Virus record (IMG/VR): IMGVR_UViG_3300042392_002433 | Coordinates: 1-32,070 of that record | Strand: one strand, 5' to 3' | DNA from: a virus | Length of the DNA: 32,070 nucleotides | Shown here: positions 246 to 16,393 of the stretch, piece after piece | Position numbering within the stretch: position 1 is the stretch's first letter | Layout: each line of letters starts with the position of its first letter | Made by a program: the position numbers and the translations under genes | The notes under the pieces: model-generated | What the model was told of the DNA's origin: nothing | Databases searched by the model: none | Seen by the model: the letters and a program-made list of their open reading frames with translations, nothing else

Positions 246-255
246 CTCGGAATCC

Positions 256-663
256 ATGAAAAAACACTACGAAGGATCGATCGACCCGCTCGGGACACAA
301 GACTGTTCTCCGTCTTTATTGACGCCGGAAACAGACGCGATGCTCGCCGCCGATCTGCACCACTTGGAAGACGATGAAAGCTGCCCGGCCTCCGCATACT
401 GGCGGATGGTGGAGCTAACGCGGACGCTGGAACGAGAGCGCGACGAATGGCGGAAGAAAGCGGTGGATCTCCATGCCCGCTACAAGGGCGCACTGGAAGA
501 CATCGAAACGGCGATTGCGGAACGGAACATGGCACGCGCTACCGCGAACACCTTCCGGCAATGCGCGGAGGTCACTTTCGGGGTGATGCCGTTCCCGCGC
601 AAATTCCATTGGGAGAACGTCCAAGGCCATGCGCCCGAAGAGAAAGGATCAGCCAATGAGTGA
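256..663 (+). CDS. Hypothetical coiled-coil protein, first gene of cassette 1
   Basis: This is a 135-residue protein of unknown function. Residues about 55-100 form a charged heptad-like helix (ELTRTLERERDEWRKKAVD and onward) that probably makes a coiled coil. No catalytic motif, signal peptide or membrane segment is seen. The ATG at 256 lies 11 bases after the previous stop, with only a weak CGGA upstream. Base composition is symmetric (C about equal to G), unlike the C-rich genes on both sides. It overlaps the next gene by 8 bases, so the two are probably co-translated. Such small coiled-coil proteins are common accessory genes in phages; I cannot name a family. Confidence 0.75.
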   Translation: MKKHYEGSIDPLGTQDCSPSLLTPETDAMLAADLHHLEDDESCPASAYWRMVELTRTLERERDEWRKKAVDLHARYKGALEDIETAIAERNMARATANTFRQCAEVTFGVMPFPRKFHWENVQGHAPEEKGSANE

Positions 664-1000
664 GCAACTGGAGAGCTTCACCGGGTCGAATGCGCCGCCT
701 TGTTCGGCGTTGGACGCTGCGCTCGCACTGGTGGACTTCGGCCCGTGCCGAGGCGCTGAACGCCCGCAAGACTGGATCAATGTGGCGAGTCCGATGTGCG
801 CTCACTGCGATGGAGTGGAAGACGTGAATCTCGCCGCCGCTCGCATCATCGCCGCCGAATATCGGAAGGCGCTCGCCGTTATCGAGGCCATCGAAGAGCG
901 ATACATCGACGGCTGCGACACCTACGAGGATTGGAAATTCATGGGAAGCTCCGCCCGCGACTATCTTCTTCCGCCGAACAGTGAAGTATCCCCCCAATAA
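656..1000 (+). CDS. Hypothetical protein ending in NSEVSPQ, second gene of cassette 1
   Basis: A 114-residue protein. I start it at ATG 656 because AGAAAGGA at 641-648 sits 7 bases upstream, a good Shine-Dalgarno site, which is rare in this window. The frame is open further upstream but has no comparable site. A Cys pair is visible (MCAHC, about residue 47) together with a helix rich in Ala and Glu (about 60-85). No family was recognised. The last codons run into repeat copy R1, so the C-terminal heptapeptide NSEVSPQ is encoded by the repeat and is identical to the end of the cassette 3 protein at 16093-16380. Base composition is balanced, as in its overlapping partner upstream. Confidence 0.75.
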   Translation: MSEQLESFTGSNAPPCSALDAALALVDFGPCRGAERPQDWINVASPMCAHCDGVEDVNLAAARIIAAEYRKALAVIEAIEERYIDGCDTYEDWKFMGSSARDYLLPPNSEVSPQ

Positions 1001-1014
1001 GTGTCCATAACACC
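973..1014 (+). repeat. Cassette-end repeat R1
   Basis: First of three dispersed direct repeats. It begins GCCGAACAG, continues TGAAGTATCCCCCC and ends AATAAGTGTCCATAACACC. The stop codon of the cassette 1 gene lies inside it (TAA 998-1000), and the small terminase start follows 29 bases later. R3 (16353-16393) is nearly identical. R2 (3753-3795) shares both ends but has a different centre. Confidence 0.9.
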
Positions 1015-1042
1015 CTAATCCTCCATTTTAGCATCTACCCCC

Positions 1043-1558
1043 ATGCCCCCCTACCCCAAAGACCCCCGGCACCAGCGCATTGCCGACCTCATCCTCGCCG
1101 GCAGCAGCAAAGTCGATGCCTACCTTGCCTCCGGCTTCAAATCCACCCGCGCCTCCGCCTACCACGCCGTCACCCGCGTCCTTCGCCGGCCAGACGTCAA
1201 AGCCTACTTCGACCACATCAAAACCGCCGCCCAAGCCGCCGCAGAACAAGCCAGCGTCCTCACCGTCCTCGAAAAACGCCAATTTCTCGCCCGCGTCGTC
1301 CGCACCCCCCTTGCCACCCTCGATGCCACAGACCCCTCCGCCAAAGACGGAGACCTCATCAAATCCTACTCCCTCACCGAATCCGAAGCCTCCCGCTCCG
1401 AACGCATCGAAAAACTCGACCCCCTCAAAGCCATCGAAATGGACAACACCCTCTCCGGAGACGACGGCCAGCGCGACCTTCAACAAGCCCTCCACCAAGC
1501 CCTCGCCTCCCTCGCCGTCCGCTCCGCCCTCCCAGACGCCCCCATGCCCCTCGAATAA
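1043..1558 (+). CDS. terS: Terminase small subunit
   Basis: A 171-residue DNA-recognition subunit of the packaging motor. The N-terminal part (about residues 8-65) has the pattern of the Terminase_2 family: a helix beginning HQRIADLILAGSSKVDAYLA, then an Ala-rich helix-turn-helix-like stretch with ASAYHAVTRVLRRPDVKAYF, the usual 'repeated units, late p-V' signature. The rest is helical and charged and probably mediates oligomerisation and contact with the large subunit. The ATG follows CTACCCCC with no Shine-Dalgarno site, as usual for backbone genes here. The large subunit begins two bases after its stop, which supports the call. Composition is strongly C-rich. Confidence 0.8.
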   Translation: MPPYPKDPRHQRIADLILAGSSKVDAYLASGFKSTRASAYHAVTRVLRRPDVKAYFDHIKTAAQAAAEQASVLTVLEKRQFLARVVRTPLATLDATDPSAKDGDLIKSYSLTESEASRSERIEKLDPLKAIEMDNTLSGDDGQRDLQQALHQALASLAVRSALPDAPMPLE

Positions 1559-1560
1559 CC

Positions 1561-3138
1561 ATGCTCCAGCTCGCCAACACCCCCCTCGTCTCCCGTGCCT
1601 GGCGGCTCATGAACCTCTACACCATCCGGGATTCAGACAGCAACCTCATCCCCTTCGTCCCAAACATCGCCCAACGCCACTTCTGGAACCGCCGCTGGAA
1701 CTCCAACCACGTCCTCAAAGCCCGCAAACTCGGCTTCTCCACCTTCCTCCAAATCGAAAACCTCGATGCCCTCCTCTTCACCCCTGGCCTCACCGCCGGC
1801 ATCATCGACTTCACCCTCCCCGATGCCAAAGAAAAACTCTTCATGCTCCGCACCGCCTACGAAAACCTCGACAACCCGGACCTCCACCCCACCACCCACA
1901 AACTCGGCGCCATCATCAAACAAACCATCCCCATCTCCGGCTCCACCATCAAACTCGAATTCGCCAACAAATCCACCATCCGCTGCTCCACCTCCCTCCG
2001 CGGCGCCACCCCCCAGCGCATCCACTGGTCCGAAGCCGGCAAAACCGCCATTTGGTTTCCCGGCAAATTCACCGAAATCGTCAACGGAGCCCTCAACTCC
2101 ATCACCCCCGGCAACACCATCGACATCGAATCCACCCACGAAGGAGGCAAAGCAGGCGGCCACTACACCCTCCTCCGCAAAACCATGAAACAAAACGACG
2201 ACCACCTCACCCCCGTCGACCGCCGCTTCCACTTCTTCCCCTGGTATCTCGACCCACGCTACCAACTCCATCAACCCTCTCACCCCATCCGCACCGAAAT
2301 CACCCAATACTTCACCGACCTCTCCAAACAACTCAATCGCACCTTCACCCACTCCCAAGTGCTTTGGTATGACAGAAAACAAGACGAACAAGGCCATGGC
2401 ATGCTCAAAGAATTCCCCAGCACCCCCGGCGAAGCCTTCCAAGCCATCAACGACCACGCCATCTACGGCAAACAAATGGCAGACCTCCGCGCCTCCCGCC
2501 GCATGATCGACTTCGCCCCCGAGCCCGGCTACCCCCTCGCCGCCTTCTGGGACCTCGGCCTCTCAGACTCCACCGCCCTCTGGATCGTCCAGCCCCACGA
2601 CCGCGCCTACCTCGTCCTCCACTGGCTCGAAACCATTGGCGATCCCGCCTCTGCCATGCCAGACCACATCCTCCGCCTCGAGCGCGACCTCGGCCGCCCC
2701 ATTGCCCTCCACTACCTTCCCCACGATGCCGCCACCCGCGACCGCGGCACCGGCCTCTCCTACCAACAAACCCTCGCCCAATACGGCCTCAACAACACCA
2801 TCATCGTCCCCCGCACCCCCGACATCTGGCTCGGCATCGGCCACGTCCGCGACGTCCTCCCCCACTGCTGGTTCCACGCCACCCATTGCGACACACCCCG
2901 CGACTACATGGGAGAAGAACACCCCTCCGGCATCGCCTGCCTCGAAGGCTACTCCCGGGACATCTCCCCCACCTCCTCCACCCTCCGCGAAAAACCAAAA
3001 CACGACGCCTTCTCCCACTCCGCAGACGCCTTCCGCACCTTTGCCGAAGCCCGCCACCTCAACCTCCTCGACCGCCTCAACCAAACCACCAAAACCACCC
3101 CCCCAAAAATCATCCGCCCCCCTGTCCGCCGCCGCTAA
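1561..3138 (+). CDS. terL: Terminase large subunit (ATPase/nuclease)
   Basis: A 525-residue packaging motor protein. A Walker A-like segment KARKLGFST lies at residues 53-61, a variant without the classical GKS/T but typical of many phage terminases. The hydrophobic strand plus acidic pair RIHWSE (Glu158) fits Walker B. The C-terminal RNase H-like nuclease is marked by FWDLGLSDST with Asp331, by HDAATRDRGTG, and by HDAFSHSADAFR with Asp482 and Asp489. Length is normal for the family. It follows the small subunit by two bases and probably shares its transcript. The start has no Shine-Dalgarno site. Codon use is C-rich throughout, with no sign of a break. Confidence 0.92.
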   Translation: MLQLANTPLVSRAWRLMNLYTIRDSDSNLIPFVPNIAQRHFWNRRWNSNHVLKARKLGFSTFLQIENLDALLFTPGLTAGIIDFTLPDAKEKLFMLRTAYENLDNPDLHPTTHKLGAIIKQTIPISGSTIKLEFANKSTIRCSTSLRGATPQRIHWSEAGKTAIWFPGKFTEIVNGALNSITPGNTIDIESTHEGGKAGGHYTLLRKTMKQNDDHLTPVDRRFHFFPWYLDPRYQLHQPSHPIRTEITQYFTDLSKQLNRTFTHSQVLWYDRKQDEQGHGMLKEFPSTPGEAFQAINDHAIYGKQMADLRASRRMIDFAPEPGYPLAAFWDLGLSDSTALWIVQPHDRAYLVLHWLETIGDPASAMPDHILRLERDLGRPIALHYLPHDAATRDRGTGLSYQQTLAQYGLNNTIIVPRTPDIWLGIGHVRDVLPHCWFHATHCDTPRDYMGEEHPSGIACLEGYSRDISPTSSTLREKPKHDAFSHSADAFRTFAEARHLNLLDRLNQTTKTTPPKIIRPPVRRR

Positions 3139-3200
3139 TTCCCACGTCCCAAGTGTGCCACCCGCCGACGATAAAACTCCACCAACGAAATCAGACGTAT

Positions 3201-3503
3201 ATGAACCAACAGACTGACAAAGCCGTTGATGGCGGGTTGCACACCACTGACTTGTTCGCTGGGCCGATGCGCTCCGCTATGGTGTTCGCTGCCCGCTACA
3301 CCCACACCCGGAACACAGGCGGCACTCTCGCCGTAGTCCGCGCACTAAAACAATGCTGGCACGTCTTGGACGATCACACACGCGACCAGATCCTCCGCGA
3401 GTCGCACGAAGCGGAATACAACCTCGATGACTGGCAACACCTCCGAGATTTTGCAGCGAACGATCATGAGCAGCAACCCGAAAGGAGCGCCCCAGATGCC
3501 TGA
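3201..3503 (+). CDS. Hypothetical protein, first gene of cassette 2
   Basis: A 100-residue protein of unknown function starting at the ATG after ACGTAT. It carries RYTHTRNTGGTLAVVRALKQ and a C-terminal DDWQHLRDFA helix, a pattern I associate with small conserved phage proteins, without a known activity. The frame is open further upstream, but there it is only a shadow of the terminase gene. Balanced base composition sets it apart from both neighbours. It overlaps the next gene by 8 bases, exactly as in cassette 1, so the pair is likely translated together. No membrane segment or catalytic motif is visible. Confidence 0.75.
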   Translation: MNQQTDKAVDGGLHTTDLFAGPMRSAMVFAARYTHTRNTGGTLAVVRALKQCWHVLDDHTRDQILRESHEAEYNLDDWQHLRDFAANDHEQQPERSAPDA

Positions 3504-3765
3504 ATCCACCACGAAACTGCCCGCTCCTGAGGGTTGCGCTGCCTCTGCTGGTTCTGCGTTGGCGGACCAAGTGGGCGGTCGCCACTACAAATCTCTGGCC
3601 ATCCAGCCGGCCGAATACTGCCAGCGGAACCGTCTCCCCTACTGCGAGTCGAGCGTGATCCGCTATGTGACCCGCCACCGCGAAAAGAACGGCCGTGAGG
3701 ACATCGAAAAGGCCATTCACTGCCTAAAGCTACTGCTGGAACTCGAATACCCGCAGAACAGTTAA
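3496..3765 (+). CDS. DUF3310 family protein, second gene of cassette 2
   Basis: An 89-residue protein. Residues about 26-85 match the DUF3310 pattern of many phages: GGRHYKSLAIQPAEYC, then a helix ending SSVIRYVTRHREKNGREDI, then EKAIHCLKLLLELEY. Members are sometimes annotated as nucleotide kinases, but no P-loop is present and the function is unknown. The ATG at 3496 is chosen because GAAAGGAG (3480-3487) lies 8 bases upstream; an in-frame ATG at 3469 is the alternative. Like the other cassette genes it has symmetric base composition and a Shine-Dalgarno site. Its stop lies inside repeat copy R2. Confidence 0.85.
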   Translation: MPESTTKLPAPEGCAASAGSALADQVGGRHYKSLAIQPAEYCQRNRLPYCESSVIRYVTRHREKNGREDIEKAIHCLKLLLELEYPQNS

Positions 3766-3795
3766 TTATGGGAATCAATAAGTGTCCATAACACC
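3753..3795 (+). repeat. Cassette-end repeat R2 (variant centre)
   Basis: Second repeat copy. It shares the ends GC(A)GAACAGT and AATAAGTGTCCATAACACC with R1, but the middle is TAATTATGGGAATC instead of GAAGTATCCCCCC. The cassette gene stops at the TAA near its left end. The next backbone gene appears to use the GTG inside its right end as start codon. Confidence 0.85.
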
Positions 3796-4204
3796 GTCAC
3801 CCCTCCACCTCGCCGCCGTCGCCTGGCACTCCACCCCGGATCCGCCAAACACCTTTGCGGAAATCCTCGACTTCCACCTCTCCACCCCTGGCGCCGTCGT
3901 CATCTCCCTGCCGGATTCCTTCCTCATGGCCCGCCCCGTCATCGCCGCGCAGCCAGAAACACACCTCCACTTCACTTCCCCCCTTCAATCGCCACCCATC
4001 GCCGATTGCTGGCACGTTGCCTCCGCAGCAGGAAGCGTTCGCGCCTTGCTCATGCTTGCACACCGTCACCCCCTCCCGTGGGTCTCTTACTGCCGGCATG
4101 GGCAAGACCGCATCCGCCTCCACCAACTTCACACCCTCCTCCGCCATGGGCTCCCAGAAATCTCCAAAACTCCCAGAACCAGCCCCGCCACCTCCCCCCG
4201 TTAG
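3782..4204 (+). CDS. Conserved hypothetical phage protein upstream of portal
   Basis: A 140-residue protein of unknown function. The central segment DCWHVASAAGSVRALLMLA followed by LPWVSYCRHGQDRIRLHQL resembles small proteins often found just before the head-tail connector in T7-like phages; this is recall of a pattern, not a database match. The only initiator upstream of the good coding region is GTG 3782, which lies within repeat R2, so the original start may have been displaced when cassette 2 arrived. ATG 3926 is an internal alternative but would remove convincing sequence. C-rich codon use marks it as a backbone gene. It overlaps the next small gene. Confidence 0.65.
   Translation: MSITPSPLHLAAVAWHSTPDPPNTFAEILDFHLSTPGAVVISLPDSFLMARPVIAAQPETHLHFTSPLQSPPIADCWHVASAAGSVRALLMLAHRHPLPWVSYCRHGQDRIRLHQLHTLLRHGLPEISKTPRTSPATSPR
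3981..3993 (+). repeat. 13-mer CCCTTCAATCGCC, copy 1
   Basis: First of three exact copies of CCCTTCAATCGCC (others at 7728-7740 and 13806-13818). This copy lies inside the gene at 3782-4204, while the other two lie in intergenic leaders. Function unknown. Confidence 0.7.
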
Positions 4205-4325
4205 CGCCACCGGCACAGAACAAGCCACCGCCGACATCGAGGAACGCCGCCGCAAAGGCAAACGCTACACCTTCGAGAACACCATCATCGCCCCCGGCAC
4301 CACCGGACGCCAAACCCTCGGCTAA
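4146..4325 (+). CDS. Small conserved phage protein before portal
   Basis: A 59-residue protein with a Pro-rich N-terminus (PEPAPPPPP), then a basic helix EERRRKGKRYTF and the end GTTGRQTLG. Tiny proteins with a basic RRRKG segment followed by a small-residue G..TLG tail commonly precede portal genes in podoviruses and siphoviruses; their function is unknown. ATG 4146 is preferred, with ATG 4098 as an in-frame alternative giving 16 more residues. It overlaps the upstream gene by 59 bases or more and ends two bases before the portal start, so it belongs to the head operon. Real coding is supported by position and by the basic helix rather than by length. Confidence 0.6.
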   Translation: MGSQKSPKLPEPAPPPPPVSATGTEQATADIEERRRKGKRYTFENTIIAPGTTGRQTLG

Positions 4326-4327
4326 CC

Positions 4328-5992
4328 ATGTCCACCCCAGACCCAAAGGCCGAAGCACTCCTCGCCCAAAACGCCACCCTCGTCGCCGAGCGCTCCGCCT
4401 GGGATAGCCTCTGGCAAGACTGTGCCGACATCGTCCACCCTCGCCGCAACCAAATCACCCAGAAAACCCCCATCGGCCCGCCCGATCGCACCACCCTCCA
4501 CCGCAACAACGACGGCACCGCCATGAGGGCAAACAACACCCTCGCCACCGGCCAATCCGTCCGCATCACCCCCATGGGCGCCCGCTGGTTCATCCTCCGG
4601 CCCCCGCCCTCCCTCCAAGGAAACCAAATCGCCGAAAACTACTTCGCCCGCGCCACCGAAATCCTCGTCGCCTCCCTCGGCACCTCCAACTTCTACAACC
4701 GCGGCCACGAATGCTACCTCGATCGCGGATGCTTCGGCATCGCCGCCCTCGAAGTCACCGGCGGCCCAAACAACCGCGGCCTCCACTTCCGCACCTACCC
4801 AGTCGGCTCCTTCTCCATCGCCCAAAACTCCTTCGACGAAGTCGACGTCATCCACCGCAACTACGAGCAAACCCCCGCTCAACTCCTCGAAGCCTTCGGC
4901 CGCAAAGCCCTCCACGAAGACATCCTCAAAAAATTCGACAACCCCGCCACCCGCTACCAACGCACCGAACAACTCATCCACGCCATCCACCCCCGCACCG
5001 ACCGCGACCCCCGCCGCCAAGACGCAGCCCACAAACCCTACGCCTCCACCTACCTCCACAAAGGCACCAACACCATCATCCTCGATTCCGGCTTCGACGA
5101 ACTCCCCACCGCCGTCTCCCGCTGGTCCACCTGGGGAGAATCCCCCTACGGCTGGGCACCCGCCTACGCCGCCCTCCCCGAAGCCTCCCAGCTCGACTTC
5201 CTCGAGCAAATGCTCGACACCCTCGTCGAAACCGCCGCCTTCCCCCGCGTCCTCGCCCCCGCCGGCATGAAGAACGAAATCGACTTCACCGCCTGCGGCC
5301 TCACCATGTTCGATCCCGCCATCACCCAAGTCCCCCAAGAATGGCTAACCGGCGGCCGCTACGATGTCGGCAAAGACCGCGCCTTCGAAAAACGCCGCGC
5401 CATCGAAACCGCCTTCCACGTCGAACTCTTCAACGCCATCTCCCAGCTCGACCCCAAAGCCACCGCCACCCAAATCTCCGCCATCATCACCGAGTCCCGG
5501 GAACTCTTCCACCCCATCTATTCCAACATGGTCCGGGAATTCCTCACCCCCGTCCTCCGCCGCTCCTTCGCCCTCCTCCTCCGCCAAGGAGTCATCCCTC
5601 CGCCGCCCCTCTCCATCCTCCAGACAGACAGCCTCTCCGCCTTCCTTGAGGAGCCGGCCGTCGAATACGTCTCCGCCATGGCCCTCGCCCTCGAGGCCTC
5701 CCACCTCCACAAATTCCAAGAAATCATCGGCGTCCTATCCCCCCTCGCCAATCTGGATCCCACCATCCTCGACTACATCAACCCCGCCACCATTGGCGCC
5801 CACTTCCACCGCACCTCCGGCCTCCCCACCGTCCTCCTCCGTACACCCCAGGAACTCCAGGAACTCCAAGAAGCCCGCGCCCAACAAGCCCAAGCCCAAC
5901 AAGCCCTCCAAGCCACCGAAGCCATCCGCAACCTCGGCGGCCCCCAAGAAACCCTCCGCGCCGCCCAACAAGCCGCACCCCTCGACGCCTAA
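4328..5992 (+). CDS. Portal / head-to-tail connector protein (T7-like)
   Basis: A 554-residue portal protein forming the ring at the capsid vertex through which DNA enters and leaves. It matches the T7-type 'head to tail connecting' family. The N-terminus has a helix ending WDSLWQDCADIVHPRR, followed by ATGQSVRITPMGARWFILRP. The central part has FYNRGHECYLDRGCFGIAAL and the conserved strand region FRTYPVGSFSIAQN. Further on comes SPYGWAPAYAALPEASQLDF, which is typical of the connector stem. The last 50 residues are Gln/Ala-rich (QAQQALQATEA). Size is as expected (T7 gp8 is 536 residues). The gene lies between terminase and scaffold in the usual order, with C-rich codons and no Shine-Dalgarno site. 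Confidence 0.9.
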   Translation: MSTPDPKAEALLAQNATLVAERSAWDSLWQDCADIVHPRRNQITQKTPIGPPDRTTLHRNNDGTAMRANNTLATGQSVRITPMGARWFILRPPPSLQGNQIAENYFARATEILVASLGTSNFYNRGHECYLDRGCFGIAALEVTGGPNNRGLHFRTYPVGSFSIAQNSFDEVDVIHRNYEQTPAQLLEAFGRKALHEDILKKFDNPATRYQRTEQLIHAIHPRTDRDPRRQDAAHKPYASTYLHKGTNTIILDSGFDELPTAVSRWSTWGESPYGWAPAYAALPEASQLDFLEQMLDTLVETAAFPRVLAPAGMKNEIDFTACGLTMFDPAITQVPQEWLTGGRYDVGKDRAFEKRRAIETAFHVELFNAISQLDPKATATQISAIITESRELFHPIYSNMVREFLTPVLRRSFALLLRQGVIPPPPLSILQTDSLSAFLEEPAVEYVSAMALALEASHLHKFQEIIGVLSPLANLDPTILDYINPATIGAHFHRTSGLPTVLLRTPQELQELQEARAQQAQAQQALQATEAIRNLGGPQETLRAAQQAAPLDA

Positions 5993-6025
5993 CACCATCC
6001 CCCAAAATCCTCTCAACCCCACCCC

Positions 6026-6556
6026 ATGACCCAACCTCCCCGCCATGCCCACTCCCCCACGCAAAACCGCCCCTCGCAAAGTGACGCCGCCAAACAAGAA
6101 CGCGCCAAACTCCTCTCCGCCATCCATGCCACCCTCACCAGCGACCCCGGCAAACAATTCCTCACCTGGCTACACACCGCCGCCCCCATCGACTGCCCTC
6201 TCAACGATGCCGACCACTTCGACTCCACCTTCGATCCCGCCGTCTTCCTCGCCCTCTTCACCACCGTCCCCGGCCGCACTACCCTCGCCTGGCTTTGCCA
6301 CATCGGAGGAACAGACCGCCCCGTCTACCAGCTACTCCCCGCCAACGCCCACCTCGACCCACTCGCCGCTTGCGTCCGGGAAGGCCGCCGCCTCATCCCT
6401 GCCATGCTCCGCTCCCTTGTCAACGGCACTTACCACCCGGGAATCCCCGACGACACCCTTGCAGCCACCAAAGACGGCCTCCGCCAACTCCACCTCGAAA
6501 TCCTCTCCACTCTCGCCGACGCCAAAGCCGAGCACTCCATCCTCGGCCCCGAGTGA
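6026..6556 (+). CDS. Hypothetical head-region protein, possibly Bbp19-like
   Basis: A 176-residue protein between portal and scaffold. It contains two related-looking segments with the pattern P-G-(K/R)-x3-L-x-W-L: SDPGKQFLTWLH (about residue 41) and VPGRTTLAWLCHIGG (about 83). They are followed by the acidic/aromatic region and VREGRRLIPAMLRSLV (about 117-132). The second segment resembles the Bbp19 family of small podovirus structural proteins, where a GR..L..LL..G motif precedes an F..GRR helix; I hold this only moderately. The first 20 residues are low-complexity. The start follows AACCCCACCCC. A second reading frame with no start continues right after its stop (next entry). Confidence 0.6.
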   Translation: MTQPPRHAHSPTQNRPSQSDAAKQERAKLLSAIHATLTSDPGKQFLTWLHTAAPIDCPLNDADHFDSTFDPAVFLALFTTVPGRTTLAWLCHIGGTDRPVYQLLPANAHLDPLAACVREGRRLIPAMLRSLVNGTYHPGIPDDTLAATKDGLRQLHLEILSTLADAKAEHSILGPE

Positions 6557-6737
6557 CCGCCCCAAGCCCTGCCCCACCCTCGGCCACGGCTCCCTCGAAT
6601 ACTTCACCTGGTCCGCCGCCCACGATACCGACGCCGAATTCCTCCGCCTCTACAGCCTACGCGCCGAGAAAATGGCAGCCCGCTGGCCAGATGCCACCGC
6701 CGCCAACAAACGCCTCCACGCCCTCCTCAACCCCTAA
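6555..6737 (+). CDS. Start-less downstream reading frame (frameshift extension or small gene)
   Basis: After the stop at 6554-6556, the +1 frame holds a convincing protein segment of about 60 residues, with GHGSLEYFTWSAAHDTDAEF and then LYSLRAEKMAARW, ending TAA at 6737. It has C-ending codons like the backbone. In this frame I find no ATG or GTG for over 90 bases upstream. TTG 6459 would give a Ser/Pro-rich leader that looks like a shadow frame, and ATG 6672 would discard most of the good part. The junction reads GGC CCC GAG TGA C. A +1 slip on CCC, or at the weak UGA-C stop, would fuse it to the upstream protein. A separate gene with an unusual start, or a sequencing error, are the alternatives. 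Confidence 0.45.
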   Translation, partial: DRPKPCPTLGHGSLEYFTWSAAHDTDAEFLRLYSLRAEKMAARWPDATAANKRLHALLNP

Positions 6738-6763
6738 CTCTACCCACAACCCCACCCAACCCC

Positions 6764-7660
6764 ATGAAATACCGCACACCATTCCAAATCCTCCGCACCG
6801 AAGCCATCCTCGAAGCCCCACCAGCCGGCGGCGGAACCCCCGCACCCACTCCCGCCCCAGCAGCCACACCACCCCCAGCTCCCGCCATCCTCAACCCGGA
6901 CGGCACCTTCGGAGAAAACTGGCACACCGCCCTCGGCGATAACTTCGCCCCCCACGCCTCCTCCCTCACCCCCTTCAAAAACGTAGGAGACCTCGCCAAA
7001 TCCTACCTCCACTTCCGCTCCAACGGCCCCGCCTACCCAGAAGCCAACGCCGCCCCCGAAGACGTCGCCCGCTTCCGGACCCTCGCCCGCGTCCCCGAGG
7101 CTCCGGAAGGCTACAACATCAAGCCCCCAGCAGACATCCCAGAAGGCATCACCTTCGATGCAGACCTCGCCGCGAACATCGCCAAAATCGCCCACGCCAA
7201 CCACGTCCCCGCTCCCGCCCTCCAAGCCCTCGTCGACGCCCAATTCCAAGCAGAAGTCGCCCGCCACACCGCCTTCACCACCGCCCAGCAAGAAGCAACA
7301 CGCGCCGCACAAGACGCCCTCGTCGCCGAGTGGGGAGGCAAATTCAACGAAAACTCCTCCATCGTCCGCCACCACCTCGCCCTCCACGCCGAGGCCGCCG
7401 GCATCCCCGCAGACTCCCCCGTCCTCGCCCAGCTTGCCAACATGCCCGAGGTTTCAAAACTCATGCTCCAAGTCGCCCGCCTCACCGCAGAAGACCACGC
7501 CCGCACCCCCAACGGCCTCGGAGACCTCCGCTCCCCACAAGAACGCGCAAACGCCATCATGGACGGCACCGATCCCACCTGGTCAGAACGCTACAAAAAC
7601 GGAGACCCAGACGCCTACAACACCGTCGCCAACCTCCTCAAACAAGCCTCCGGCCAATAA
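6764..7660 (+). CDS. Scaffolding / capsid assembly protein
   Basis: A 298-residue protein placed directly before the major capsid gene. After a Pro/Ala-rich linker (residues about 20-45) come DGTFGENWHTALGDN, the segment NVGDLAKSYLHFRS and PEGYNIKPP. This order is characteristic of podovirus scaffolding proteins: a 'FKNVDDLAKSYL' helix, then a 'PE.YEFK.P' turn. A long Ala/Gln-rich helical region (about 150-215) follows, as expected for a scaffold. It acts inside the procapsid to guide shell assembly and is normally released before maturation. The start is ATG 6764 after CAACCCAACCCC. A strong terminator follows the stop, separating it from the capsid gene. Confidence 0.82.
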   Translation: MKYRTPFQILRTEAILEAPPAGGGTPAPTPAPAATPPPAPAILNPDGTFGENWHTALGDNFAPHASSLTPFKNVGDLAKSYLHFRSNGPAYPEANAAPEDVARFRTLARVPEAPEGYNIKPPADIPEGITFDADLAANIAKIAHANHVPAPALQALVDAQFQAEVARHTAFTTAQQEATRAAQDALVAEWGGKFNENSSIVRHHLALHAEAAGIPADSPVLAQLANMPEVSKLMLQVARLTAEDHARTPNGLGDLRSPQERANAIMDGTDPTWSERYKNGDPDAYNTVANLLKQASGQ

Positions 7661-7689
7661 CCTCACCTCCCCTCCACCCCTGGCCACAC

Positions 7690-8872: not shown

Positions 8873-8880
8873 CCCCCACC

Positions 8881-8905: not shown

Positions 8906-8939
8906 ATAACCCCCACCAAACACTCACACACTTACCACC

Positions 8940-9413: not shown

Positions 9414-9474
9414 GCCACCACGCCACACACAAACCATCTCCCATCGGTTGAGGATCCGGTGGGGTAATTAGGGG

Positions 9475-9510
9475 AACACCCGGCCCAACTCGGGCCGGGT
9501 GTTTTTCTTT
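9475..9510 (+). terminator. Rho-independent terminator after decoration gene
   Basis: Perfect 12-bp stem AACACCCGGCCC (9475-9486) / GGGCCGGGTGTT (9492-9503) with loop AACTC, followed by TTTCTTT. This is the strongest terminator in the window and it closes the capsid/decoration unit. Confidence 0.92.
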
Positions 9511-9539
9511 CCTCTCACCATCCCACTCTCCGCTCCCCA

Positions 9540-10772
9540 ATGACCTCCACCCAAATCGCCAACCTCGCCCTCGACCTCCTCGGCGAGCCACCCCTCACCG
9601 ACCTCGAAACGGACACCTCCACCACCGCCGAGACCGTCCGCCTCCACTACAACCACACCCTCGAAGTCCTCCTCGAGCAACACCACTGGGCCTTCGGCAC
9701 CGCCCCCGCCAATCTCCTTCCCCTCGACGAAGCCCGCGCCGCCACCGCCACCCTCAACCCCACCGGCACTAACAACGACATCCTCATCACCGCACCCGCC
9801 ACCGGCCCGGATGGCAACCTCCTTACCGCAGAAATCGCCACCTCCACCGACCACGCCCTCACCGTCGCCAAAACCGCAAACCACATCCTCATCACCGCCG
9901 GAGCCAAACACCGCATCACCATCACCGGCCCCCTCTCTCCGGACGTAACCGAAACCCACCTTTTCGGCACTCTCCAAAACGACCGCCCCGCCTACTACTA
10001 TCCGGAATTCACTTTATCCTTCACCTCCATCATCTACTGGACCGGGACCAAATGGCTCATCATCACCAACCCGCCAAGCCCCGGCACCAGCTGGGAATCC
10101 ACCGAAGACAGAGCCACTCCTGACCTCGTCACCTCTTGGACCGCCACCGGATCCGCCACCGGCACCCCCACTCTCGTCGCCTCCCCGCCCACCGCCGCCC
10201 AAGCCATCGCCGCAGCAAACGCCGCCCTCGAAGAAACCTTCGCCAACGCCCCCGGCTCAGACGGCACCGGCACCCTCGCCGCCGTCCCCTCCACCCCATT
10301 CCAAGGCGGCCGCACCACCCTCCTCCCGGACTGGGGAACCGCCTACGACCTCCCGGCCGATTGCCTCCGCGTCCTCAAACTCACCGGCCCAGATCGCGGC
10401 GCCCCTATCACCGACTTCCGCATCATCGGCCGCAAACTCCTCCTCTCCCCCCTCGCCGCCCTCACCGATCGCCTCCACATCGAATACATCACCAGCGAGG
10501 CCTCCGACTGGTCTGCCACCTTCCGCGAGGCCTTCCGCTACCTCCTCGCCTCCCGCATCGCCACCCGCATCACCGGCTCCCCAAACCTCGCCGCCCAGCT
10601 CCTCCAAGACCACCGCGAGACCCTCGCCCGCGCCACCCTCAAAGACTCCCAGGAAACCTCCTCAAACGAAAACAACCCCATGCGGGAAATGATCCTCCGC
10701 TCCCCCCTCGCCCGCGCCCGCCGCCGCTACTCCGGCTCCCCAGACTACACCCCAGAACCCCCGAACGCATGA
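9540..10772 (+). CDS. Tail tubular protein A-like (T7 gp11 family) with a large insertion
   Basis: A 410-residue gatekeeper/adaptor protein that joins portal and tail nozzle. The N-terminus QIANLALDLLGEPPLTDL, then VRLHYNHTLEVLLEQHHWAF, is the family signature. The C-terminal part has YDLPADCLRVLKL (about 269-281), GRKLLLSP and a helical end (ATFREAFRYLLASRIATRI). T7 gp11 is 196 residues; here about 180 residues are inserted between the two halves (about 68-255). The insert is Thr/Ala-rich and beta-like, and includes FTSIIYWTGTKWLIITN and EDRATPDLVTSWTATGSATG, a module I associate with surface-decorating beta domains. The stop overlaps the next start (ATGA), indicating coupled translation with the nozzle gene. 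Confidence 0.82.
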   Translation: MTSTQIANLALDLLGEPPLTDLETDTSTTAETVRLHYNHTLEVLLEQHHWAFGTAPANLLPLDEARAATATLNPTGTNNDILITAPATGPDGNLLTAEIATSTDHALTVAKTANHILITAGAKHRITITGPLSPDVTETHLFGTLQNDRPAYYYPEFTLSFTSIIYWTGTKWLIITNPPSPGTSWESTEDRATPDLVTSWTATGSATGTPTLVASPPTAAQAIAAANAALEETFANAPGSDGTGTLAAVPSTPFQGGRTTLLPDWGTAYDLPADCLRVLKLTGPDRGAPITDFRIIGRKLLLSPLAALTDRLHIEYITSEASDWSATFREAFRYLLASRIATRITGSPNLAAQLLQDHRETLARATLKDSQETSSNENNPMREMILRSPLARARRRYSGSPDYTPEPPNA

Positions 10773-13700
10773 ACTCCCTACTCCTCACCTTCAACTCCGG
10801 AGAAATCTCCCCCCACCTCCGCTTCCGGCTAGACCTCGAAAAACACCTCGGCGCAGCCTCCACCCTCGAAAACTTCCTCGCCCTCCCCTACGGCTCCATC
10901 ACCAAACGCCCCGGCCTCCGTTGGCTTGCCCAGACCCTCACCGCCGGCGCAAACACCCGCGCCTTCCCCTTCCAAGCCACAGACCGCTCCCGCTACATCC
11001 TCCACTTCACCGCCGGCAAACTCCGCATCCTCCGCCCAAACGGCACCACCGCCGCCACCCTCGATTGCCTGCCAAACCTCACCCTCGCCACCCCACCCAG
11101 CCCCCTCACCACCGGCTACTGGGACGCTCCCTTGCGCGACCTCCAACTCATCGCCATCAACGACACCGCCTTCATCACCCACCCCTCCACCGCGCCCCTC
11201 CGCCTCCGCCGCCTCACAGACACCTCCTGGACCCTCGACTTCATCCCCTTCACCAACGCCCCCTCCCTCGACGAAAACCTCGACCCAAACAAAACCCTCA
11301 CCGTCCTCGCCCACCCCGTCTCCAACAACTGGACCCCGGAAAACCCCTACACCCCCGGCGATACCGTCGTCTCCCAAAACGCCGAGTGGGTATCCCTCAC
11401 CACCCACACCTCATCCCTGTCCACCGAGCCCGGCCGCGGAGGCGACTGGAAAACCAACTGGCGGCGCCGCCTCTTCCTCCCCGGTGAAGCCATCACCCTC
11501 ACCGCCGGCCCCCGCACCGCCACCCCCTGGCTCGATACCTTCCGCCTCTTCACCCCCGGAGAAATCTTCGTCGCCTCCAGCGTAGACCCCGGCGACCCCT
11601 TCGAATACGGCCACATCTGCCTCCTCGCCTTCCGCAACCTCCCAGACACGGAAGAACCAAACGCTCCCCCAAACACCACCCACTTCGCCCGCTGCGATCA
11701 ATGGGACCGCGGCGGAGACCTCGAAGACGACACATGGGACGTTGGCGACTACTGCGTCCACGATGGCACCCTCTACGAATGCACCCAAGACCACGGCAAC
11801 CACGTCCCCGGCGTCAACGCCTCAGAACCCGGCACCGGCACAGACTGGGAAGACTACTGGCTAGAACTCGGCCCCTTCACTACCTTCACCGCCTGGACCC
11901 TTGCCACCGAGGAACTCCCCATCGGCTTCCAAGTCCTCCACAACGGTGCCACCTACACCGTCACCACCGCCCACAGCCCCACCCCAGACACCGAGCCCGG
12001 CACCGGCGTCGACTGGGAAGACTACTGGCTCGAAACCTCCCTCTTCCAAACCACCCACGCCGCCCTCTCAGGCACCACCCCCGGCTCCTATTGGACCGCC
12101 TCACCCTCCCGAGACGACAAAGACTTCCAAGTCGAACTCGCCGCCCTCACCACCAACAACGGCAAAACCTCCCCCATCATCGCCGTCGATGGCGGCTGGA
12201 ACCTCAACACATTCGGCACCTGGTCAGGCACCTTCACCCTCCAACGCTCCCTCGACAACGGCACCACCTGGGAAACCATCCGCTCCTACCAAGCCACGGC
12301 CGACCGCAACGTCGCAGACTCCGGCACCGAAGACACCCCCGTCCTCATGCGCATCGCCTTCGCCAGCGAATCCGGAACCGACACCTCCGGCAAACAACGC
12401 GCCGTCCTCACCCCCGAGCTTCCCTACATCCGCGGCACCGCCCTCGCCACCACCTACATCTCCCCCTCCGCCATCCGCGGCACCGCCATCACCGCCCTCC
12501 TCTCCGGCCAGACAGATCGCTGGGCGGAAGGAGCCTTCTCCTCCCTTCGCGGCTTCCCTGCCGCCATCGGCCTCCACGAAAAACGCCTCATCTTCGGCGG
12601 CACCACCCACGCACCCGCCACCCTCTGGCTTTCCCAATCCGACGACCTCAACAACTTCGAGCCCGGCACAGACGACAACACCTCCATCACCTACCCCATC
12701 CCCACCCCAGCCCTCGCCCCCATCCGCTGGATCATCTCCCAACGCCGCCTCATCATCGGCACCTCCCGGGGAGAGTGGATCATCGGCAGCGAAACATCCG
12801 ACCAACCCCTCACCCCCTCCAACTTCCTCGCCCGCTCCTACACCGCCTTCGGCACCATCCCCCTCCAACCCGTTCCCGCCAACGACGCCATCCTCTTCGT
12901 CGAACGCAAAGGCTCCCGCCTCCGCGAGCTGGCCTACACGCCAGACGACACCAACGCCGCCGGCGACCTCACCCGCCTTGCCGAGCACCTCACCCAACCC
13001 GGCATCTGCTCCCTCGCCTGGCAACAAACCCGCGAGCCCGCACTCTGGGCAGTCACCCGCCCCGGCGTCCTCCTCCACCTCGCCTACAACCGCACCGAGC
13101 GCCTCTCCGCGTGGTCCCGCCACACCACCCCCTCCGGCACCTTCCGCGAAGTCATCGTCCTCCCCTCGGATGATGGAGACGACGACGTCTTCTTCATCAT
13201 CGACCGCGGCAACACCTCCCACCTCGAACGCCTCCCCGCCCACTGGCTCCAAACCCTCGAAACCGCCCAAACCCCCGGCCTCCCTGCCGATCCCGCTTGG
13301 CCCTACTTCTACCTCGACGGCATCGAAGGCACCGGCACCACCATCACCGTCCCCACCCACCTCCAAAACACCCCCCTCACCCTCCTCACCCTCACCGGCG
13401 CCGCCGTCGTCCCCACCACCACCAGCGTCAACTACAACACCAGCCCCGTCACCATCACCAACGCCCGCTACCACCTCGGCCGCCCCTACACCGCCACCTA
13501 CAACTCACTCCCCATCGACCTCGCCGCCCAAGACGGCTCCACCGCCGGCCGCCTCCGCCGCCTCAACCGGATCCGCCTCAACACCTACCGCTCCCGCGAA
13601 GGCACCGTCTGGAACGCCTCGCCCGCCCGCGCCCAACTCATCCACAGAAACCCGGACGTCACCACCCCCCTCCTCGATGGCTGGCAAGAAATCGTCCTCG

Positions 13701-13804
13701 ATCCCGGCAACCTCACCGAGACCACCATCAACATCACCCACGCCTCCCCCTACCCCCTCACCCTGCGCGCCGCCTCCCTCTCCTGGAACATCCAAGAACC
13801 CTAA
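10769..13804 (+). CDS. Tail tubular protein B-like nozzle protein with three CBM-like modules
   Basis: A 1011-residue tail nozzle protein of the T7 gp12 type. The N-terminus FNSGEISPHLRFRLDLEKHLG, then NFLALPYGSITKRPG (the characteristic G-x-(I/L)-x-(K/R)RPG), begins the beta-propeller-like nozzle fold. The second half has LWLSQSDDLNNFEPG, IGTSRGEWIIG and FVERKGSRLRELAY, all typical. Inserted at about 188-424 are three related modules of 45-60 residues with the pattern Y..GD.V.H.G..Y ... EPGTG.DWEDYWLE, reminiscent of CBM5/12 carbohydrate-binding modules; copies two and three are nearly identical at the end. T7 gp12 is 794 residues, so the insert accounts for most of the extra length. It acts at the tail tip during adsorption and DNA ejection. 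Confidence 0.85.
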   Translation: MNSLLLTFNSGEISPHLRFRLDLEKHLGAASTLENFLALPYGSITKRPGLRWLAQTLTAGANTRAFPFQATDRSRYILHFTAGKLRILRPNGTTAATLDCLPNLTLATPPSPLTTGYWDAPLRDLQLIAINDTAFITHPSTAPLRLRRLTDTSWTLDFIPFTNAPSLDENLDPNKTLTVLAHPVSNNWTPENPYTPGDTVVSQNAEWVSLTTHTSSLSTEPGRGGDWKTNWRRRLFLPGEAITLTAGPRTATPWLDTFRLFTPGEIFVASSVDPGDPFEYGHICLLAFRNLPDTEEPNAPPNTTHFARCDQWDRGGDLEDDTWDVGDYCVHDGTLYECTQDHGNHVPGVNASEPGTGTDWEDYWLELGPFTTFTAWTLATEELPIGFQVLHNGATYTVTTAHSPTPDTEPGTGVDWEDYWLETSLFQTTHAALSGTTPGSYWTASPSRDDKDFQVELAALTTNNGKTSPIIAVDGGWNLNTFGTWSGTFTLQRSLDNGTTWETIRSYQATADRNVADSGTEDTPVLMRIAFASESGTDTSGKQRAVLTPELPYIRGTALATTYISPSAIRGTAITALLSGQTDRWAEGAFSSLRGFPAAIGLHEKRLIFGGTTHAPATLWLSQSDDLNNFEPGTDDNTSITYPIPTPALAPIRWIISQRRLIIGTSRGEWIIGSETSDQPLTPSNFLARSYTAFGTIPLQPVPANDAILFVERKGSRLRELAYTPDDTNAAGDLTRLAEHLTQPGICSLAWQQTREPALWAVTRPGVLLHLAYNRTERLSAWSRHTTPSGTFREVIVLPSDDGDDDVFFIIDRGNTSHLERLPAHWLQTLETAQTPGLPADPAWPYFYLDGIEGTGTTITVPTHLQNTPLTLLTLTGAAVVPTTTSVNYNTSPVTITNARYHLGRPYTATYNSLPIDLAAQDGSTAGRLRRLNRIRLNTYRSREGTVWNASPARAQLIHRNPDVTTPLLDGWQEIVLDPGNLTETTINITHASPYPLTLRAASLSWNIQEP

Positions 13805-13805
13805 A

Positions 13806-13818
13806 CCCTTCAATCGCC
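13806..13818 (+). repeat. 13-mer CCCTTCAATCGCC, copy 3
   Basis: Third exact copy, in the 44-base gap between the nozzle gene and the internal virion protein gene, beginning one base after the nozzle stop codon. Confidence 0.7.
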
Positions 13819-13848
13819 CCCACCCAAAACCCCAGCCATCATCCCCTC

Positions 13849-14331
13849 ATGTTCTTCGGCGCCATCGGCCTCATCGGCGGTCTACTCTCCACCGGCCTCG
13901 CCATCTCCGGCGCAAAGGCCCAGGACAAAATGCAACGCCAAGTTGCCAAATACAACGCCCGCCTCGCGGAAATGGAGGCCCACAACCGCGAACTCGAAAC
14001 CGCCGAATCCATCCGCCGCCAATCCATCAACGACCGCTCCGCCCGCGCCACTCTCCTCACCCGCGCCGCCGCCTCCGGCTCCTCCACCACCTCCGGCTCC
14101 ATCCCCCTCATCCTCGGCCGCGCCGCCGCCGCCCAGACCCTCGCCATCAACGATGCCGCCCGCTCCGCATCCATCCAAGCCGCCGCCCTCCGCCAACGCG
14201 GCGCCATGGAACTCTGGCAATCGAAAGTCCAATCCCTCAACACCAAAAACCAAATCCGCGGCCTCGCCATCCAAGGCATCGCCCAAGCCGCCTCCACCTT
14301 CAACCAAAACCGCCAACTCGGCGCACGCTGA
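13849..14331 (+). CDS. Internal virion protein, T7 gp14-like
   Basis: A 160-residue protein. A Gly/Ala/Ile-rich N-terminal segment FFGAIGLIGGLLSTGLAISG could insert in a membrane. It is followed by a long helical region (AKYNARLAEMEAHNRELETA), a Ser/Gly-rich turn (SGSSTTSGSIPLILG) and a second helix. This order, together with position right after the nozzle gene, is that of gp14-type internal virion proteins (T7 gp14 is 196 residues). Those proteins leave the capsid on infection and form the outer-membrane pore of the ejection channel. The start ATG 13849 gives the expected hydrophobic N-terminus. C-rich backbone codon use. Confidence 0.72.
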   Translation: MFFGAIGLIGGLLSTGLAISGAKAQDKMQRQVAKYNARLAEMEAHNRELETAESIRRQSINDRSARATLLTRAAASGSSTTSGSIPLILGRAAAAQTLAINDAARSASIQAAALRQRGAMELWQSKVQSLNTKNQIRGLAIQGIAQAASTFNQNRQLGAR

Positions 14332-14339
14332 AAATCCTC

Positions 14340-14564
14340 ATGCCCTGGCAACCCCCAGACACCGCCCCCAAAGACGGCACCCCCATCCTCGGCGACTTCG
14401 GCTGGTCCTCCCCAAACTTTGCCGTCTGGGATCAATGCTATGAAGAATGGGCCATCGTCACCGTCGAAACCTCCCCAATGGAAAATCGCAAACCCCACAC
14501 TTCCCTAGAAATCGACACCGAAAAACCCGAGAACCTCAAACGCTGGCTCCCTCTACCCCCATGA
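14340..14564 (+). CDS. DUF551-like small protein
   Basis: A 74-residue protein beginning MPWQPPDTAPKDGTPILGDF and ending KRWLPLPP, with FAVWDQCYEEWAIVT in the middle. The layout W-(x)-TAPKDGTPI-(L)-G ... W ... W-x-PLP is that of DUF551 and related small phage proteins of unknown function. It starts 9 bases after the previous stop, and its own stop overlaps the next start (ATGA). Its position among internal virion genes is unusual, because DUF551 genes are mostly in early or accessory regions. Codons are slightly less C-ending than in neighbours (GAA, AAA, TGG), but not enough to call it an island. Confidence 0.72.
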   Translation: MPWQPPDTAPKDGTPILGDFGWSSPNFAVWDQCYEEWAIVTVETSPMENRKPHTSLEIDTEKPENLKRWLPLPP

Positions 14565-15967
14565 TCCGCCTCCCCCAACTTTCCCCCACCTCCCTCGGCA
14601 ACCCCGCCGCGCCCACGCCAGACGTCTCATCCGGCACGAACCAAATCGCCAACGCCATCGGCCAAGTCTCCGGAGCCTTCGTCCAAATCTCCCACGACAT
14701 CGCCCGCGCAGACAACGCCCGCAAAAAATCCGAATTCCGCCAAACCCTCGGCAAAAACTACGCCGACCTCCAAATCCAACTCCAGACCATCACCGATCCC
14801 CAAGAACGCCTCACCCGCACCAACGACTTCCTCGCCTCACAACGCGCCAACGTCGACAACCCCGACTTCCCCCCCGTCCTCGTCGAAGAACTCCGCACCT
14901 ACTACGACGACTTCGCCACCACCGCCCAAATCCGCGCCGCCCAAGACGCCGCCCAACTTACCTTCAAGCGCTCCCAAATGGCCCTCCAGAACGAAATCGA
15001 CGGAGCCGTCCAAACCGGAGACGCCGCCGGCCTCGAAACCGTCATCGACACCGGCGTCGAAGGCGGACTCATTTTCCCCGAAGAAGCCGACGACATCCGC
15101 ACCCGCTTCCAGCGCCAACAAGCCGAGCGCAACATGATCGACCTCATCGAAGCCGAACCCACCGGCGCACTGATCGACCTCGACACCGACGACTTCCTCG
15201 CCCGCAACCCAAACATCCTCCCCACATCCATCCCCCAACTCAAAAACCACGCCAAACGCATCATCGAAGAACGCCGCCGCGAAGAACTCGACGCCATCGA
15301 CACCGCCATCCTCAACGGCACCTACGATGCCGAAGACGTCGAAGCCGCCCAATACCTCACCCCCTCAGACCGCGCCCGCATCATTGCCGGCCAAAAACAA
15401 GAAGGCCCGCCGCAAACCAAAACCCACTCCGCCGCCTGGGACCTCATGTTCAAACTCCGCGACGAATTTACCGATCCATCCCTCTCAGATGAAGAATACG
15501 CCAAACGCTGGAACGACACCCGCATCGAAATCTTCTCCGCCATCCCCGAGCAATTCCGCGGCGATTTCACTCAGGAATTCTCCTACCGCTCCCCGGCAAA
15601 CCGCAAAGGCGGCAAACCCGTCAACGCATCCCCAGACGCCGACATCAAATCAAACGCCCAACAACGAATCAAACGCGCCTTCGATTCCGGCCTCTTCGGA
15701 GAAAAAAACTCCCCCAAAGCCTTCGACCAATTCCAAAAACTCAACATCCACCTCAACCAATGGCTTGCCGCCAATCCCGACAAGCCATGGCCCGAGGTGC
15801 AATACTACACCCAGACCCTCATCTCCGGCACCTTCACCGACAACGACGCCCTCATCATCCCCACCGCCCCCACCGCCGTCTCCTTTGACGACCGGATAAA
15901 CAAAGCCCTCGGCATCTCCCCCGGACCCGCCGGAACAGACACCTCCCTCCTCCCCCCAAAGCCGTAA
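14561..15967 (+). CDS. Internal virion protein, T7 gp15-like position
   Basis: A 468-residue, mostly helical, charged protein. An early helix is ANAIGQVSGAFVQISHDIAR. Long Gln/Glu/Arg-rich helices follow (QDAAQLTFKRSQMALQNEID; DDIRTRFQRQQAERNMIDL), with a Pro-rich tail. There are no membrane segments and no enzyme motif. Size and position, between the gp14-like protein and the giant virion protein, match the second ejection protein of T7-like phages (gp15, 747 residues), though it is shorter. The role as a periplasmic part of the ejection tube is inferred. It starts in an ATGA overlap with the gene before, and cassette 3 begins after its stop. Confidence 0.6.
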   Translation: MIRLPQLSPTSLGNPAAPTPDVSSGTNQIANAIGQVSGAFVQISHDIARADNARKKSEFRQTLGKNYADLQIQLQTITDPQERLTRTNDFLASQRANVDNPDFPPVLVEELRTYYDDFATTAQIRAAQDAAQLTFKRSQMALQNEIDGAVQTGDAAGLETVIDTGVEGGLIFPEEADDIRTRFQRQQAERNMIDLIEAEPTGALIDLDTDDFLARNPNILPTSIPQLKNHAKRIIEERRREELDAIDTAILNGTYDAEDVEAAQYLTPSDRARIIAGQKQEGPPQTKTHSAAWDLMFKLRDEFTDPSLSDEEYAKRWNDTRIEIFSAIPEQFRGDFTQEFSYRSPANRKGGKPVNASPDADIKSNAQQRIKRAFDSGLFGEKNSPKAFDQFQKLNIHLNQWLAANPDKPWPEVQYYTQTLISGTFTDNDALIIPTAPTAVSFDDRINKALGISPGPAGTDTSLLPPKP

Positions 15968-16021
15968 CCACCAGCTTCCAAAACTCCAAACAACACCGCC
16001 AGCCCATCCCCCAGCCTACCC

Positions 16022-16096
16022 ATGGTAATGCAATCCTCAATCACGAACGCCAACAGCCCATCCGGTTCGGACGGACAAACCACCCCACAACAATGA
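16022..16096 (+). CDS. 24-residue ORF at the head of cassette 3
   Basis: ATG GTA ATG CAA ... TGA encodes 24 residues (MVMQSSITNANSPSGSDGQT, then TPQQ). It overlaps the next ORF in an ATGA arrangement, echoing the overlapping gene pairs in cassettes 1 and 2, so it may be a relic or minimal first gene. There is no Shine-Dalgarno site and no family. The 54 bases before it, after the stop at 15967, contain nothing I can name. Confidence 0.3.
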   Translation: MVMQSSITNANSPSGSDGQTTPQQ

Positions 16097-16380
16097 GCGG
16101 ACTAGACGGCCTTGGATGGCCCACAAATACCCCGAGCGGAACAACTGACGAGTCTGAATCGGATGCGGCGAATTGTTCGGCATTGCCTGATGCCTCCGGC
16201 CTCTGGTGGCAGTGGTATCAAGGCATGTGGCAACTCTGTCAGTGCCAATACAGCACAATCATGACTCGATGGGAGTTCCGCTGGATCAACGGTCAACACT
16301 GGTTTCGGTGCTACCCCGGATCGTTCCTGCGCTGCGACCCTCCAAGTTGTCTGCCGAACAGTGAAGTATCCCCCCAATAA
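16093..16380 (+). CDS. Trp/Cys-rich hypothetical protein, second gene of cassette 3
   Basis: A 95-residue ORF with an odd composition: eight Trp and five or more Cys, mostly in the second half (LWWQWYQGMWQLCQCQY; RWEFRWINGQHWFRCY). The end SCLPNSEVSPQ is contributed by repeat R3 and matches the end of the cassette 1 protein. Base composition is symmetric, unlike the genes on both sides. No Shine-Dalgarno site is visible, though the start overlaps a short ORF. It may be a real small protein or a decayed cassette kept open by chance. I favour a real ORF because the repeat is read in the same frame as in cassette 1. Confidence 0.5.
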   Translation: MSGLDGLGWPTNTPSGTTDESESDAANCSALPDASGLWWQWYQGMWQLCQCQYSTIMTRWEFRWINGQHWFRCYPGSFLRCDPPSCLPNSEVSPQ

Positions 16381-16393
16381 GTGTCCAAACACC
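16353..16393 (+). repeat. Cassette-end repeat R3
   Basis: Third repeat copy. From GCCGAACAG through TGAAGTATCCCCCC to AATAAGTGTCC it is identical to R1, then differs slightly (AAACACC against ATAACACC). It lies 17 bases before the start of the giant polyvalent gene and supplies the stop codon of the cassette 3 gene. Confidence 0.9.

Follow-up and report, generated by a model that had tools for sequence, protein, structure and literature searches.

The window analysed here is the whole of a 32,070-base IMG/VR virus record (IMGVR_UViG_3300042392_002433), which carries phage genes including a terminase and a head-tail connector (PF12236, 1.2e-95). At three loci in this window, one or two small open reading frames (ORFs) are closed at their 3' end by a common repeat (called the tail for simplicity). 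With a probability of roughly 93%, these loci are cassette arrays of a phage integron whose ORFs run opposite to those of bacterial cassettes and which are docked at three attI sites. They belong to a phage integron family that is widespread and little described and whose cargo often looks useful against bacterial defences. Five lines of evidence were shown at the sequence level: complementarity of the cassette ends, attC orientation, adjacency of attI and intI in relatives, exchange between identical flanks and consistent inversion of the ORFs.

A sequence-only reading of this stretch had proposed three two-ORF cassettes with one shared 3' repeat, and the repeat proved to be real and far beyond chance: AATAAGTGTCCATAACACC is present in two exact 19-base copies (996-1014 and 3777-3795; expectation in shuffled sequence 0), and the third copy is one base shorter (16376-16393; AATAAGTGTCCAAACACC). 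The full tail, AACAGTGAAGTAT-N6/7-AATAAGTGTCCATAACACC, scored 25-27 out of 28 at all three sites, and elsewhere in about 1.2 Mb of fetched sequence scores of 25 or more were confined to relatives of the window phage. Only four other viral contigs contained the tail repeat, all of them the window phage, and no exact match was found in bacterial genome contigs (genome_contigs). Every tail lies at the 3' end of a cassette and is directly followed on the same strand by a backbone gene, as had been stated: terS at 1043 (site 1), gp3 at about 3849 (site 2) and a 2603-aa ORF at 16410 (site 3). The ORF overlaps also stood (656-663 and 3496-3503, 8 nt each; 4 nt at 16093). The description of two ORFs per locus held for sites 1 and 2, and was wrong for site 3, which has one convincing ORF (16093-16380); the 24-codon 'ORF1' proposed there overlaps the distal part of an attC.

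Under the circular-cassette rule of integrons, the two ends of a cassette are complementary to each other. In all five window cassettes (5/5) and in the arrays of relatives, the last 7-8 bases are the reverse complement of the first bases. Such arrays lie directly before intI in the contigs L003, L008, L022, L029, L030, L032 and many others. Linked cassettes, in which an end is followed by the next start within 40-170 nt, numbered 63 on the plus strand and 5 on the minus strand, with 0 and 0 in reversed or complemented control sequence; isolated 8-mer end matches, which include chance matches, numbered 191 on the plus strand versus 88, 56 and 71 in the controls. The sequence-only reading had denied attC features and known of no described element with this layout. 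Both statements have to be given up: attC sites, complementary cassette ends, attI and an IntI integrase (encoded just outside the window) were all found, and the loci belong to an integron, though an unusual one of phage type. The features assigned in the window are as follows.

240-311, minus strand: distal attC of cassette 1a at site 1, from sequence and pairing of the outer boxes CTTTAAC (240-246) and GTTCTCC (305-311), with a weak hairpin and a putative boundary; the gene before has its stop codon at the CTTTAAC box, and ORF 1a has its start codon inside the attC.
256-663, plus strand: cassette 1a ORF, no family found; GTTCTCC at 305 is complementary to GGAGAAC at 612.
612-708, minus strand: site 1 attC between 1a and 1b, from arm alignment, with extra bases on the plus-strand right arm and the ORF 1b start (656) in the loop; its minimum free energy is no better than that of shuffled sequences (z -0.2).
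656-1000, plus strand: cassette 1b ORF, no family found; attI gives the stop codon; GTTCGGCG at 702 is complementary to CGCCGAAC at 972.
979-1014, minus strand: putative attI of site 1 (shared tail), predicted crossover 978/979, from position and conservation like the attI-intI stretch of relatives.
3139-3260, minus strand: distal attC of cassette 2a at site 2, boxes TTCCCAC (3139-3145) and GTTCGCT (3254-3260), start codon (3201) in the loop.
3201-3503, plus strand: cassette 2a ORF, weak match to phrog_11947; GTTCGCTG at 3254 is complementary to CAGCGAAC at 3454.
3455-3557, minus strand: site 2 attC between 2a and 2b, hairpin z -1.5, extra bases on the plus-strand right arm, with an 88% identical stretch in contig L106.
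3496-3765, plus strand: cassette 2b ORF, a DUF3310 domain protein (PF11753, 7e-6, above cutoff); GTTCTGCG at 3551 is complementary to CGCAGAAC at 3752.
3759-3795, minus strand: putative attI of site 2 (shared tail), common to L003 and L004, which hold other cassettes.
16042-16181, minus strand: attC of cassette 3 at site 3, long arm pairing with an extra base on the plus-strand right arm, z about 0, start codon (16093) in the loop.
16093-16380, plus strand: cassette 3 ORF, no family found; attI gives the stop codon; GTTCGGCA at 16175 is complementary to TGCCGAAC at 16352.
16359-16393, minus strand: putative attI of site 3 (tail one base shorter), missing together with the cassette in the relative L010.
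1043-3138, plus strand: backbone genes flanking sites 1 and 2, small terminase (1043-1558) and large terminase (1561-3138).
3849-5992, plus strand: backbone genes gp3 (3849-4325) and head-tail connector (4328-5992), the latter with the PF12236 match given above.

The 2603-aa ORF is a single reading frame (16410-24221) directly 3' of the third attI.

The attCs of relatives folded with a mean z of -2.4 (28 attCs) and -2.6 (11 attCs), and the extra bases were on the expected arm in 35 of these 39. Set by set, extrahelical bases were found on this side in 24/28, 11/11 and 3/3 phage attCs, and on the same side in 15/19 bacterial ones; with intI drawn on the right this is the right arm in phages and bacteria, which indicates that attC is oriented in the same way with respect to attI and intI. 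At the fourth position of the outer box, bacteria mostly have A and phages mostly C. Cassette material recurs between phages: a methyltransferase cassette at site 2 of L031 has a counterpart in the array next to intI of L105 (81% DNA identity), and L106 repeats a portion of the attC that belongs to the DUF3310 cassette. Two other layouts were tried and rejected. An attC in plus orientation (cassette from GTTCGGC, attC 3') was ruled out by the arm carrying the extra bases and by the attI-like stretch at the right end beside intI, and would also leave the ORFs without start codons of their own. For an insertion sequence end or ISCR-like one-ended transposition neither a transposase nor a second end was found, and the cassette-end rule fits the layout better.

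As sequenced, the window is an attC cluster without an integrase, and close relatives have intI just upstream of the region that matches it. The contigs L003 and L008 (about 99% identical) reach further upstream and encode a 326-aa IntI-type recombinase; in the alignment of L003 with the window, intI ends about 2.7 kb before window base 1, with a cassette array and attI directly before it. The best family of this protein was the integron integrase family TIGR02249 (260 bits, cutoff 265), its best solved relative was V. cholerae IntI4 (5e-47) and the IntI-specific region could be aligned to 2a3v. TIGR02249 was the best family for all scored phage IntIs; 5 of the 8 full-length ones exceeded the curated cutoff, and those of L003, L022 and L029 scored just under it. 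IntIs were present at a comparable place in related terminase-bearing contigs. About 50 viral IntIs fell mostly into viral-only clades, many of them with attC-linked arrays ending at attI-intI, and when 92 IntIs were placed in a quick tree, 'viral' as a label required 7 changes versus 30 when shuffled. A viral clade of 22 rows was sister to IntIs of Akkermansiaceae/Verrucomicrobiales, and the L003-type IntIs fell into a different viral clade together with Rctr41k; since the tree came from a short search and contains some long branches, the deeper joins are unsure. Among large ORFs chosen from other contigs with an IntI, some had a PHROGs match and others had none, so that the phage nature of those contigs rests partly on IMG/VR. 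Two individual genes were observed in passing: the 'integrase-like' gene annotated at 4680-5678 of Virus Rctr41k (L087, KX853513) groups with the L003-type viral IntIs, and in L016 (1439-2422) the intI frame is broken by upstream stops so that the C-terminal portion alone is open, with cassettes still before it.

Read on the minus strand, the tail (...CACTG) is GGTGTTATGGACACTTATT-N6/7-ATACTTCACTG|TT, or near to it. Between the last cassette and intI, about 20 phages have an attI-like stretch of 28-63 nt with a conserved start, which in relatives often begins with AACAGTGATTATCC on the plus strand, as the tail does. A second attI type, AACCACTGATTCAACCGC..GCGGTTTTATT, precedes intI with small changes in L003, L008, L029, L150 and L152, and appears again at site 2 of L029, where it ends the array. 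Its position and the junction between L003 and L008 described below suggest that the stretch functions as attI. Of the tail, the window has three copies, all away from intI. As a separate observation, the attI type of L003, L008, L029, L150 and L152 has a terminator-like hairpin and a T run right after the crossover.

The direction of the ORFs distinguishes phage from bacterial cassettes. Among clear cassettes after dereplication, the ratio of ORFs pointing toward attI to those pointing away was 44:3 in phages versus 3:34 in bacteria (p=1e-16), and with linked cassettes only it was 35:4 versus 2:18; these counts replaced a count over all matches, since isolated 8-mer matches include chance ones. 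The start codons of most phage ORFs lie inside attC, 25-109 nt ahead of the R box, and the ORFs terminate within attI or the attC that follows. An attC loop that holds a start codon and also gives the stop of the preceding ORF explains the ORF overlaps of 8 and 4 bases. Because the phage ORFs point toward attI and not away from it, the latter being a typical and non-essential trait, we regard the system as a variant of the integron and not as a typical member. With ORFs facing this way, a Pc-type promoter at attI would not serve the cassettes.

Exchange was seen among close relatives. The site 2 flanks of the window and of L003/L004 are 98-99% identical, and the tail and next gene are the same, while the cassette content is entirely different; this agrees with the earlier suggestion of modular gene capture at a common recombination site, in which the ORF pair varies and the repeat and following gene stay. 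On the left, identity between the window and L003 stops at base 3142, which is the predicted crossover. L003 and L008, whose integrases are 99% identical, hold different cassettes before intI, and their identity resumes exactly at AAC (predicted AA|C crossover), 51 bases before the intI start codon. An empty site, which the sequence-only reading had proposed to look for, was found at site 3 of L010, where both cassette and tail are missing. Apart from the cassettes, the window differs strongly from L010, or one of the two has inserted or missing sequence, at 11547-11918 and also at 13849 and 14332-14551, between flanks that are 89-98% identical; these segments have no cassette tail and represent further places of exchange, in the region of the tail or morphogenesis genes.

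In the mechanism we propose, the minus strand at each locus would read attI (the shared tail) and then one or two cassettes with their attCs in the canonical orientation. The enzyme would be an IntI-type tyrosine recombinase encoded by the phage just outside the contig, and it would swap cassettes at attI and attC by cutting at G|TT (AA|C on the plus strand); the natural junctions are consistent with recombination of single-stranded attC by IntI. A cassette would comprise an attC, with ribosome binding site and start codon in the hairpin loop, and an ORF that would take its last codons and stop from attI or the following attC. Since the ORF points toward attI, it would run in the direction of the phage operon and be transcribed from phage sequence upstream, so that cassettes are presumably expressed by read-through from phage genes. 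The window phage itself probably encodes IntI and uses all three attI copies, and the arrays may serve as a stock of accessory and counter-defence genes that can be exchanged. Beyond these three loci, we lean towards the wider view that phages, largely those of Verrucomicrobiota, swap counter-defence genes by a phage-specific class of integron with its own integrase lineages, a separate pool of inverted-ORF cassettes and several attI per genome; the inversion of the ORFs in this pool could fit phage operons.

Several observations weigh against the integron assignment. The right switch at site 2 falls 19 nt within the tail, so that homologous exchange may have moved the array. The window attCs pair their arms but fold weakly (z -0.2, -1.5 and 0.0), and site 1 of L003/L008 has lost bases between 488 and 999, with a stump of the tail left; some arrays may thus be fossil. 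The outer box is mostly GTTCNNY, and the textbook GTTRRRY was found in 2 of 80 phage boxes; with the same detector 19 of 50 bacterial boxes fitted, so this consensus is not strictly diagnostic. No intI was found in the window itself, which we attribute to the window beginning mid-operon. Finally, recombination is deduced here from sequence junctions. The switch inside the tail, the terminator-like hairpin of one attI type and the mosaic nature of phage genomes would all suit ordinary mosaicism, i.e. morons swapped by homologous recombination at shared boundaries, with the tail as a promoter, terminator or other signal. Mosaicism, however, predicts neither complementary cassette ends nor attC hairpins with extrahelical bases, intI beside the arrays or an exact AAC junction, and is contradicted by the 63 linked cassettes versus 0 in reversed and complemented controls; we consider it highly improbable.

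An array without intI could also be a passenger, namely attC clusters caught by accident from a host integron (clusters of attC sites lacking an integrase, CALINs) with no phage system behind them, and integron pieces of host origin have been reported in phages (PMC9892861). The fixed place of IntI in close relatives, the viral-only clades of viral IntIs and the inversion of phage cassette ORFs with respect to bacterial ones speak against copies of host arrays, and no host genome with an inverted-cassette integron and a near-identical IntI was present among the best 80; we consider this origin highly improbable. That the IntI-like enzyme is the lysogeny integrase of the phage and the arrays a by-product of its insertion into a host attC or attI is extremely unlikely: the enzyme is a tyrosine recombinase in a phage and carries the label integrase in PHROGs, but another tyrosine recombinase is encoded in the window (28059-29357, minus strand), beside a stretch resembling a tRNA 3' end, and variable arrays abut intI in many relatives. 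We give almost no credence to the view of the sequence-only reading, a new capture system merely resembling integrons and devoid of attC; the end box does depart from GTTRRRY and the ORFs do face the other way, yet attC architecture, attI and IntI were all found.

Of 66 cassette ORFs, at least 8 matched DNA methylases and most matched no family. Two matched the Acb2/Tad1 hairpin family just above cutoff, and single ORFs matched Lar, DUF3310, PAPS reductase and RNA ligase. These family names suggest a counter-defence role of the cargo. Related cassettes at 8643-8933 of L152 and 9601-9906 of L091 both encode an Acb2/Tad1-hairpin protein, and the IntIs of these two phages are from different clades.

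The hosts are likely Verrucomicrobiota. When 388 genomes were sampled from the phylum to which a Luteolibacter metagenome-assembled genome belongs, 33 of them had homologues of the terminase (best identity 61%). A Verrucomicrobiota genome with 61% TerL (G270) was dismissed, as it holds a terminase remnant with neither linked cassettes nor an intI match. The second, conventional-looking tyrosine recombinase of the window (28059-29357, minus strand; phrog_1, 2.4e-12) lies beside a stretch at about 28020-28060 that by eye resembles a tRNA 3' end and in which ARAGORN found no full tRNA; the two are possibly a lysogeny integrase and its attachment site.

Integrons are a bacterial device for stockpiling genes, and phage integrons have so far been reported mainly as captured host pieces. 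If our reading is true, phage lineages with their own IntI, inverted cassettes and several docking sites would amount to site-specific exchange of accessory genes, and new counter-defence proteins could be sought specifically among the cassettes without a family. The inversion would also make it testable what sets the direction of ORFs with respect to attC, and whether this keeps the cassette pools of phages and bacteria apart. Like phage morons, the cassettes are small accessory genes between backbone genes; unlike morons, which are not known to have a recombination site or dedicated integrase of such kind, they come with a recombination site and an integron integrase.

Integrons in phages as such are already known: Qi et al. 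2023 described integrons and CALINs with methyltransferase cassettes in bacteriophages, most cases being CALINs, with host-type integrases (Vibrio, class 1, Shewanella) and phage attCs that recombined with attI1 (PMC9892861). The phages studied here share with those the presence of IntI, attI, attC and cassettes in phage genomes, including methyltransferase cassettes, and differ in that their IntIs form viral-only clades, their ORFs are inverted and one phage has several copies of attI. Phage-specific IntI lineages, systematic ORF inversion and several attI per phage were sought in the open-access literature, with subscription papers and preprints outside the search, and no report was found. 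These three features, with the attI copies dispersed over a single genome, appear to be new. The atypical integrons of Treponema, which share one direction of transcription between intI and the cassette genes (PMC3607928), have intI toward attI and cassettes away from it, whereas in the phages the cassettes point toward attI and intI away. With bacterial chromosomal integrons, e.g. those of the Verrucomicrobiota L172, L175 and L220, the phage arrays have in common the attC orientation relative to attI and intI and the complementary ends, as well as the IntI family, in which the Verrucomicrobiota enzymes are nearest to the L022-type viral clade; the ORFs of the bacterial cassettes point away from attI (34/37), those of the phage cassettes toward it (44/47).

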